From Clonostachys chloroleuca (lineage: Eukaryota; Ascomycota; Sordariomycetes; Hypocreales; Bionectriaceae), in NCBI GenBank assembly GCA_037952775.1, contig JBANAY010000003.1, positions 17,918,001 to 17,982,000 of the forward strand: a DNA stretch of 64,000 nucleotides, in the 5' to 3' direction. A model generated the notes under the pieces. It did not search any database, was not told where the DNA came from, and saw only the letters and a program-made list of their open reading frames with translations. Of this stretch, positions 33,766 through 35,363 are shown piece after piece (position 1 is the first letter of the stretch; each line of letters begins with the position of its first letter). A program made the translations under genes and the position numbers.

Positions 33766-35363
33766 CTATGAAAAGTGAATCCCTTCCTCGTTAAACGCAA
33801 ATAGTAATCGTAAAAAGTCGTTCTCGTCACATTTTCCAGCTCGTTTATCGGCGAGTTCGGTGACGTCCTCCAAGACTTTGCGGATCTTCTCACGCACGAG
33901 CTCTGCCACCTTGGTCTTCTTCCTCTTGCTCTTCGTCTTGGCCACTTCATTCGAAGCCATCTCCTTGAAAAACGCTGGGGTATCGTCGTCATCAACGTCC
34001 ATGCCGTTGCCGTCTTCGTCGTCCCCGGCATCGGCATCATCCACCTCGATGTCATCCGGGCTGTCCTCCACCAGGCTATCGTCGACGGCTACGCCGTTCA
34101 TGGCGCACCATGTGCGGTAGTTCCTCTCGACCATTGCCAGGACCTCCTTGGTGCCGAGCCAGCTGGCACGGAGCGTCTTGTTCTTCCTGACGAAGCACAC
34201 GCGCAGGAGGCCGTCCCACTCGTCCCAGCTGATGTTGGGGCGGTCCTTGCCCAGCTTGGGCTCGATCCGGACCACTGAGGACTCGACCTGCGGGGGCGGT
34301 CTGAAGTTGTTCTTGCCGACCTTCATGATGTGCGTGATCTTGGCCCAGAACTGCGCGTTGACGGACAGCCTGCAGTAGAGGGCATCTCCCGGACGGGCAG
34401 TGAGACGGAGCGCGAACTCGCGCTGGAACATGAGGATTGAAGTGCGCGGGGGTTAGGCATGGCCAACAGTTTGAAGACGAGAGGACTTGAGATCTATATC
34501 GAATAAGTATATGTTAGTCCGTGTCTACGATATGTGAAACTAGCAACAGTAACTGACCTGGTAGGGTGTATTCGAAATGCAAACATCAAACTGTGGCAAC
34601 TCCGTTTTTATCACGTCTCCCAATATTACTTCCAATTTCCTTTGTAGAGGTGTGCCTTGCACTCGTTTGGTCACTAAGTATAGATGATTAGCCTTTGAGG
34701 TTGTCTATAGCTCGTTTGATGTCCGAGTAGATCAAGATCTAATTCCTTGTCGGAAATTCATTCAAGTCGCAATCCCTTACAGAGCGAGCTATCCGCCAAG
34801 CCCTTGGCCACATTCTTGAGTCTGAAGCCTTGTGGAAGGAAGCCGCGAACTTCGACAGTGATCCAGACGATGGCAAGTTGCTGCTTTTGCGACTTAATGA
34901 ATTTCACCGATAAAGAATTAGATTGATCTAGCCCGCAGGCCCCGGCCTCCTGGTTCCATTACCGGCCGCTGGGGCCATCATGTTTGTCCCACGCTGGCAG
35001 TGACCAGGAGACACCACCCGCAATATCGTTCTCCAGTCCAAGTAATGCCCTACCTTCAGCCGCCATCCGAGGATCGAGTTCAACGCAGATGAGTTTCTTC
35101 GCTCGCTCTAGTATGCGGACACTCAAATTTCCAGTACCGGGGCCAATTTCCAACACTAAATCAGTCGGCTTGAGGAAAGCCTTCTCGACGATGGCGTCCG
35201 CGACACCGGGGTTCTTCAGGATATGCTGGCCGACATTGGTGTTGAACTTGAAGACATTGTTCTTATTCGCAGCGGCACTAGCGCCAGGGCCGCCGCCCTT
35301 CGATGGTCGTTCGTACGGGGTGCTGGACGCACTGCCGCGTTTTGCGTGCTTGACCTTGGCCAT
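33766..35363 (-). CDS. DIM1: 18S rRNA (adenine-N6,N6)-dimethyltransferase
   Basis: Dimethylates two adjacent adenines near the 3' end of 18S rRNA and acts in pre-rRNA processing. Exons are complement 35054-35363, 34558-34673 and 33766-34493; introns are 380 nt (34674-35053) and 64 nt (34494-34557). Motifs: [23 protein letters not shown]-binding [28 protein letters not shown] spliced to [16 protein letters not shown], catalytic NTPYQ spliced to [10 protein letters not shown], then [20 protein letters not shown] and [20 protein letters not shown]. An acidic insert (near residues 275-310) precedes a basic KSKRKKTK. Between MPNP and RTSILMFQ the frame breaks at a G5 run (34448-34452); one more base restores about 384 residues. 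Intron 2 is a patchwork of other genes (separate entry). Confidence 0.95.
34674..35053 (-). other. DIM1 intron 2: mosaic of fragments from four other loci
   Basis: Intron boundaries are fixed by GTAGGG (donor, 35053-35048) and ACTTAG (acceptor, ending 34674), which join conserved RMAAE to VTKRVQG in the right phase. Read on the plus strand it contains, in order: 34688-34753, like 46988-47053; 34755-34776, a 22-base exact match to the VAC7 intron (31412-31433); 34788-34885, about 88% like PRP6 coding sequence 36877-36974; 34932-34975, like VPS62 coding sequence 9815-9860; and 34979-35006, like the VAC7 intron (31459-31487). All are in the donor's orientation, hence antisense within the DIM1 transcript. 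Confidence 0.85.

Follow-up and report, generated by a model that had tools for sequence, protein, structure and literature searches.

The first coding intron of DIM1, the 18S rRNA dimethyltransferase gene of Clonostachys chloroleuca, is almost entirely composed of short copies of other DNA. Of its 380 nt, 367 are explained: five other loci supplied 323 nt, and the remaining 44 nt repeat the intron's own sequence in inverted orientation. Most likely the intron was created, and not enlarged, by templated insertion, because the edges of the patchwork are the edges of the intron to within 2 nt and most of the listed relatives appear to lack an intron at this site. At a probability of roughly 70%, we propose that it was born by template-switching repair of a broken, intronless DIM1 exon, became spliced and later received a further patch, VAC7b, from the VAC7 intron.

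Patchwork edges coincide with splice edges

We analysed a 64-kb window (C3:17918001-17982000) of a genome assembly of 59.37 Mb in 4 contigs, in which DIM1 lies on the minus strand (Table 1). The DIM1 protein of the window is listed at 100% identity to the C. chloroleuca protein P0001 (with one X in the query), and the DIM1 proteins of C. solani and C. byssicola are 96% and 94% identical to it. An earlier note, written from the sequence of the window, had taken the patchwork for intron 2 of the gene; exon 1 is in fact unbroken from its ATG to 35054, and the segment is the first coding intron. Removing it joins GCTGAAG to TGACCAAACG (GAAG/TGACC at the joint) and restores AAEVTKR. If retained it brings in-frame stops, and the predicted protein P0001 is free of intron sequence; the segment is thus predicted to be spliced out. 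Further along the gene the DIM1 frame, which named relatives keep open, is broken at a run of five G residues (34458-34462), most likely through an assembly indel.

The edges of the patchwork lie within 2 nt of the splice edges of the intron. On the 5′ side, the block copied from the glucanase gene GH81 stops exactly at 35053, the first base of the intron, so that the 5′ splice site GTAGGGCATT consists of GH81 exon sequence read in antisense, with identity over 10 nt. On the 3′ side, block A starts at 34676 and the intron ends 2 nt beyond it. The presumed branch site GGCTAAT is antisense block A, and the source of this block has GGCTAAC, which we take to be a fungal consensus branch site. The only direct repeat at the intron ends is AG (2 nt); the AG at the intron end may be a 2-nt target duplication, and many introns would show the same repeat. 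Block alignment recognised no leftover of an older intron at either end. No Rfam family reached its gathering score anywhere in the window. As RNA, the 380-nt segment folds better than shuffled versions (z -2.5, 1 of 100 as good), for which the inverted arms plausibly account.

Table 1 Features of the DIM1 locus and sources of its first coding intron (window coordinates unless a contig is given)
Feature	Position	Strand	Description
DIM1 exon 1	35054..35363	-	ATG at 35363, uninterrupted; from reading of the coding sequence
DIM1 intron 1 of coding sequence	34674..35053	-	380 nt, phase 1, GTAGGG...CTTAG; stops if read through; spliced protein matches P0001
DIM1 exon 2	34558..34673	-	From reading of the coding sequence
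CT	34674..34675		3′ splice-site AG on the coding strand; the same AG ends exon 1
Block A	34676..34753	+	Copy of 46976-47053; 60/75 aligned bases plus 6 gapped nt
Block VAC7a	34755..34776	+	Exact 22/22 copy of VAC7 intron 31412-31433
Block PRP6	34783..34886	+	91/104 against PRP6 exon 36872-36975
Inverted self-copy	34887..34930	-	Of 34728-34772; 40/42 plus 5 gapped nt
Block VPS62	34932..34975	+	42/44 plus 2-nt gap against exon 9815-9860
Block VAC7b	34979..35001	+	VAC7 intron 31459-31483; 21/23 plus 2-nt gap
Block GH81	35002..35053	+	50/52 plus 2-nt gap against C3:18638975-18639028
Source A	46976..47053	+	End of a 73-aa ORF without Pfam match, plus the sequence after it
Source of VAC7a and VAC7b	31412..31483	+	In the VAC7 intron (about 31399-31624)
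Source of PRP6 block	36872..36975	+	In PRP6 exon
Source of VPS62 block	9815..9860	+	In VPS62-like exon; Pfam E 3.5e-4, under the curated cut-off

Five loci and an inverted self-copy build the intron

Self-BLAST and local alignment identified five source loci: source A, the VAC7 intron, which was used twice, and exons of PRP6, VPS62 and GH81. Every one of the five blocks that the earlier note had matched to other places in the window was recovered. Its 22-base VAC7 intron match is exact and its VPS62 exon block was confirmed, the PRP6 exon block was upheld with the extent given in Table 1, and the block described as resembling 46988-47053 proved longer than noted. The second VAC7 piece, placed by the note at 34979-35006, is present but ends at 35001. 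Absent from that description were the GH81 block and the inverted self-copy; the statement that all pieces share one orientation holds for the six donor blocks, which keep a single chromosomal orientation, but not for 34887-34930. The 13 unexplained bases lie at 34674-34675 and, as small insertions at junctions, at 34754, 34777-34782, 34931 and 34976-34978.

Four of the five source loci lie no more than about 25 kb from the intron. The exception is the GH81 exon, part of a glucanase gene (Pfam E 1.6e-116) located 686 kb rightward on contig C3, which a genome search with the intron found at E 8e-14 and 93% identity. VAC7a and VAC7b lie 25 nt apart in their donor and in the same orientation. Source A begins inside the end of the 73-aa ORF (46770-46988), which contains two CxxC pairs. 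Only one of the six internal joints, VAC7b/GH81, has microhomology of at least 4 nt: the 5-nt GACCA at the right edge of VAC7b is common to the VAC7 and GH81 donors. The remaining internal joints have at most about 2 nt of microhomology or carry 1-6 additional bases. That a single joint reaches 4 nt weakens a clean MMBIR label; FoSTeS is grouped with the templated insertions of MMBIR.

The inverted arm crosses the A/VAC7a junction, which indicates that the composite acted as its own template. The intron thus joins several templated segments, including a self-templated inversion. Clustered sources, a single orientation and the reuse of VAC7 together fit repeated template switching better than ligation of random fragments. 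We consider it unlikely that pre-existing pieces, such as displaced flaps or extrachromosomal fragments, were end-joined into the break with no polymerase switching. Such capture would agree with the small junction insertions and the scarcity of microhomology at most joints, and distant templated insertions in yeast are proposed to be NHEJ captures (PMC11724301). An inverted copy of an already joined A/VAC7a junction nevertheless needs synthesis on the composite, and captured fragments would have had to supply six donor blocks in one orientation, four of five sources from within about 25 kb, and the VAC7 intron twice from positions 25 nt apart.

The claim of the earlier note that spliced mRNA cannot be the template stands in a narrower form: with two pieces being intronic, it cannot have been the sole template. 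Pre-mRNA would be compatible with those VAC7 pieces, and a reverse transcriptase or repair polymerase jumping between unspliced nuclear transcripts would also suit the four named donor genes (VPS62, VAC7, PRP6 and GH81), all of which lie on the + strand and are copied in gene sense. With all four genes on the + strand, however, sense is confounded with chromosomal orientation, sources within about 25 kb are more easily reached through DNA, no poly-A was seen and any target duplication is at most 2 nt. An RNA template is in our judgement very improbable.

The patchwork exceeds chance and is not a dispersed repeat

The earlier note had named matches in shuffled sequence and an ordinary dispersed repeat as outcomes that would undo its reading, and neither was borne out. 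The real segment has 4 matches of at least 34 bits in the rest of the window, and any such match appears in only 1 of 500 dinucleotide shuffles; this control led us to reject chance. The longest exact match is 22 nt in the real segment, compared with a maximum of 15 nt across 200 shuffles. VAC7b alone scores 30 bits, a value reached by 20 of 500 shuffles, so that its single score is within chance and the second VAC7 piece is not secured on its own; we accept it because it lies 25 nt from VAC7a in the donor and in the same orientation.

Against the whole genome, the 380-nt intron matches only itself, PRP6, GH81 and VPS62, in a search that missed source A and VAC7. The VAC7 intron and source A as genome queries returned only themselves, with a reach limited enough to miss their known copies in DIM1. 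In pattern searches of the genome, the 19-nt core of VAC7a occurs exactly at two places, the block and its source, with none added at 1 mismatch and one more at 2, and the core of A was found only at its source within 3 mismatches, the DIM1 copy being missed through an extra base. A 17.75-kb stretch containing DIM1 matched in the genome only the GH81 and VPS62 sources, and a 19.7-kb stretch containing VPS62 matched only the DIM1 intron. No second mosaic was found when the window was compared with the genome in pieces of 17.75-20 kb, a comparison that short or diverged blocks escape, that left out 1-5000 and 24701-25000, and in which one piece was swamped by a dispersed repeat and is little informative. 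We also surveyed 1388 tiles of 380 nt covering 264 kb of C3, among which 29 had two or more donors. Two of the 25 multi-donor tiles listed are DIM1 itself and 23 fall in one repetitive stretch or one dispersed-repeat family; 4 of the 29 are outside the listed 25. If this sample were typical, one mosaic in 264 kb would correspond to about 220 in 59 Mb, although the locus was selected for standing out. The genome and pattern searches and the tile survey thus speak against a dispersed repeat.

Several mobile origins were considered and rejected. For an introner, no other copy of the intron was found with the whole intron, the VAC7 intron or the cores as queries, searches of limited reach for short or diverged copies. 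A Pack-TYPE element or Helitron is contradicted by the inverted arms, which are internal (34728-34772 and 34887-34930), with no terminal inverted pair found, and by the lack of a further whole copy in the genome search; transposon capture in general was rejected on the genome searches for the whole intron and the placement of these arms. Transposition of the VAC7 intron by reverse splicing is at odds with the presence of just about 22 + 25 of its approximately 226 nt.

Other repeats occur around the locus. The sequence at 26965-27177 is a dispersed repeat of about 210 nt with at least 38 other places in the genome at 72-82% identity; its copy at C3:18045504 matches its own reverse complement, which gives it the look of a hairpin or MITE-like element. 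A second dispersed repeat, about 170 nt long, is present at 24713-24879, C3:17916776-17916946 and C3:18046693-18046880 (copies 71-76% alike), and adjacent sequence has a match some 52 kb to the left of the window. A short repeat at 56656-56864 has copies on C3 (90%), C1 (84%) and C4 (71%), and 49817-50759 has a 73-78% similar copy at C3:33278650-33279615. Outside the window, C3:17880500-17887100 on the left is a long, internally repetitive stretch and C3:17995300-17996300 on the right is a tandem array of nearly identical units.

Direction and age of the copies

Nine of the 13 substitutions in the PRP6 copy are non-synonymous in the PRP6 frame, and the differences fall at codon positions 1, 2 and 3 in the numbers 3, 6 and 4. 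These changes reflect drift of a non-coding copy, identifying PRP6 as the source. Pooled over the donor blocks, divergence is 34 of 320 aligned bases, too high for an assembly chimera. A chimera would be uniformly identical, and the copies are 80-100% identical, with the PRP6 copy drifted non-synonymously; moreover, two reading frames from other assemblies, P0198 and P0209, enter the same intron start. The assembly probably holds at least one indel error in DIM1, at the run of five G residues, which speaks for an artefact; with the shuffle controls standing against coincidental matches, we give a chimera or chance negligible weight. Divergence is uneven among blocks when block A is included (chi-square p 0.014) and p is 0.14 without it; source A shows no evident coding constraint along most of its length. 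Uneven divergence is not predicted by a single event and counts against our best explanation.

Most listed relatives appear to lack the intron

To compare DIM1 at the intron site in other fungi, we combined the best 120 of 1301 ORFs matching joined exons 1 and 2, a ranking that favours continuous ORFs, with the best 120 of 843 ORFs matching exon 1 read into the intron, for which this bias should be less. Together these are 132 distinct ORFs, compared as proteins. At the intron site, 126 of the 132 are continuous (gap-free alignment across residues 95-115), although one of them, P0247, is by eye better discounted, since after residue 103 it continues in the C-terminal part of DIM1. Ninety-two of the 132 run through the site and quit the DIM1 frame after NTPYQ, which is the next intron position; these are probably unspliced genomic DNA, judging from where their frames end, and a few are annotated records, for example P0171. 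In a further 30 of the 132, exons 2 and 3 are fused as well. When the 92 were compared with 42 of the 120 DIM1 proteins listed, the best named matches were 97.8-100% identical over 121-143 aligned residues and included Fusarium solani, F. ambrosium, Ilyonectria, Ophiocordyceps sinensis, Epichloe festucae, Trichoderma asperellum, T. reesei, Emericellopsis, Stachybotrys, Sarocladium, Trichothecium, Claviceps and Hapsidospora.

The six non-continuous ORFs are P0198, P0209, P0243, P0245, P0248 and P0251. Only P0198 and P0209, both Clonostachys-like and from other assemblies, leave DIM1 exactly at the intron site. P0248 breaks at residue 100, P0243 at about 101 and P0245 at 106; these come from more distant fungi and may reflect independent introns within this short stretch or errors of annotation. 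P0247 and P0251, which break at about residues 102-103 and jump to the C-terminal part of DIM1, look chimeric.

The earlier note had concluded that templated patch-copying enlarged an existing intron. Patch-copying is well supported; enlargement is not, because nothing recognisable remains of an older intron, the ends of the blocks match the splice sites to within 2 nt and the 92 ORFs look intronless here. That repeated patching enlarged or overwrote an older intron at the DIM1 site is improbable. Serial patching is suggested by P0209, and with P0243, P0245 and P0248 breaking close by, an intron that slid and was overwritten is conceivable. Yet sourced sequence makes up 367 of the 380 nt, both ends included, and leaves no older stretch, the 92 ORFs look genomic and uninterrupted, and none of the 132 listed ORFs besides P0198 and P0209 reads into an intron at this site.

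These two ORFs bear on the order of events. In P0198, exon 1 is identical and the first 21 residues read into the intron, across the GH81/VAC7b start, agree with the window; one extra base explains its remaining read-through. P0209 has an exon 1 that is 94% identical and reads GRAFLGRGGTISRVVSPGLYLHDE. As few as 3 nucleotide changes in 63 nt suffice to derive its first 21 codons from antisense GH81, compared with a minimum of 16 changes in 20000 shuffled tails. Beyond the point at which the window switches to VAC7b, P0209 keeps to the GH81 donor through three more codons (LYL, about 8 nt), and after LYL reads HD, like CATGATG in the window; CATG and GACCA both occur in the VAC7 intron too. The relative behind P0209 thus seems to have a longer GH81 block without an adjoining VAC7 piece, and this longer block suggests a second event. 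On the simplest reading, which rests on three residues of protein sequence, the GH81 block would have been the earlier one, with VAC7b patched in afterwards between CATG and GACCA.

A proposed origin by template-switching repair

We propose that a break arose in a formerly uninterrupted DIM1 coding exon in an ancestor of some Clonostachys species, and that repair filled it with short stretches copied from other DNA. The repair polymerase would have changed template repeatedly, in most cases moving no further than about 25 kb along the chromosome and once reaching a site 686 kb away, and would have folded back to copy its own product in inverted form before the end was joined. By chance the filler would have supplied a 5′ splice site, from antisense GH81, and a branch site, from antisense source A; with the flanking AG used as the 3′ splice site, the insert could be removed by splicing and be tolerated as a new intron. 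At least one later patch, VAC7b, was probably added in the lineage of the window. Tentatively, and with less confidence than in the repair origin itself, the DIM1 site might be a standing intron-building locus, at which one switching event that joined several antisense fragments of nearby genes was followed by lineage-specific patching in Clonostachys.

Intron gain through break repair is an accepted proposal, for which a 2012 review lists 5 unambiguous events, and the evidence at that time came from introns resembling mitochondrial and not nuclear DNA (PMC3443670). A Daphnia survey reports, apart from an earlier mitochondrial case, possible sources for just four of its inserted segments, three of these being weak; it gives no source for most new introns and mentions a possible mosaic from neighbouring breaks (PMC4202315). 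The DIM1 intron resembles the described cases in being filler DNA at an intronless site, and possibly in a very short flanking repeat, and differs in that its bases are mostly of nuclear origin and come from several sources (PMC4202315, PMC3443670). In DIM1, most listed relatives look intronless, as judged from proteins, and sourced filler is bounded by splice sites.

A close parallel among repair products is offered by break insertions in budding yeast, which share with DIM1 short distant copies and inverted near-break copies, and which involve microhomology (PMC11724301). There, Pol32 (read as Pol delta) and end joining are required for short foldback inversions, and distant templated insertions arise at the same break as the inversions (PMC11724301); yeast, the host of this assay, is without POLQ. 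Those breaks are laboratory-induced and their foldback inversions are mostly shorter than 14 bp, whereas the DIM1 insert is natural, inherited and mosaic, and forms an intron. MMBIR likewise yields templated insertions attributed to polymerase template switching (PMC8421209); by contrast, most DIM1 joints have no clear microhomology, and the likeness is one of sequence, genetic requirements aside. Cas12a repair in Magnaporthe oryzae, also a filamentous ascomycete, places pieces of other loci at a break with 2-3 bp microhomology at some junctions, but its products are induced, made with donor DNA and kilobase-scale, unlike the DIM1 intron (PMC9684475). Fungal introner-like elements are also new fungal introns, but they form multi-copy families (PMC4457414), and our genome searches, of limited reach for short or diverged copies, found no other copy of the DIM1 or VAC7 introns. 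Among the literature matches listed, from a search that subscription papers mostly lay outside, we found no intron assembled from several nuclear loci. Relative to known break-repair gains, the DIM1 intron is new in that several nuclear sources are traceable.

The origin of new introns is a long-standing question, and the DIM1 intron offers a rare view of where a new intron and its splice signals arose: the 5′ splice site and the presumed branch site already existed in antisense, the former in a glucanase exon and the latter in source A. The hypothesis becomes testable in other Clonostachys species, and the finding points to a search strategy in which introns are matched to at least two distant loci block by block and not as a whole. 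If our reading is true, untraceable new introns elsewhere could be mosaics whose sources have drifted beyond recognition.
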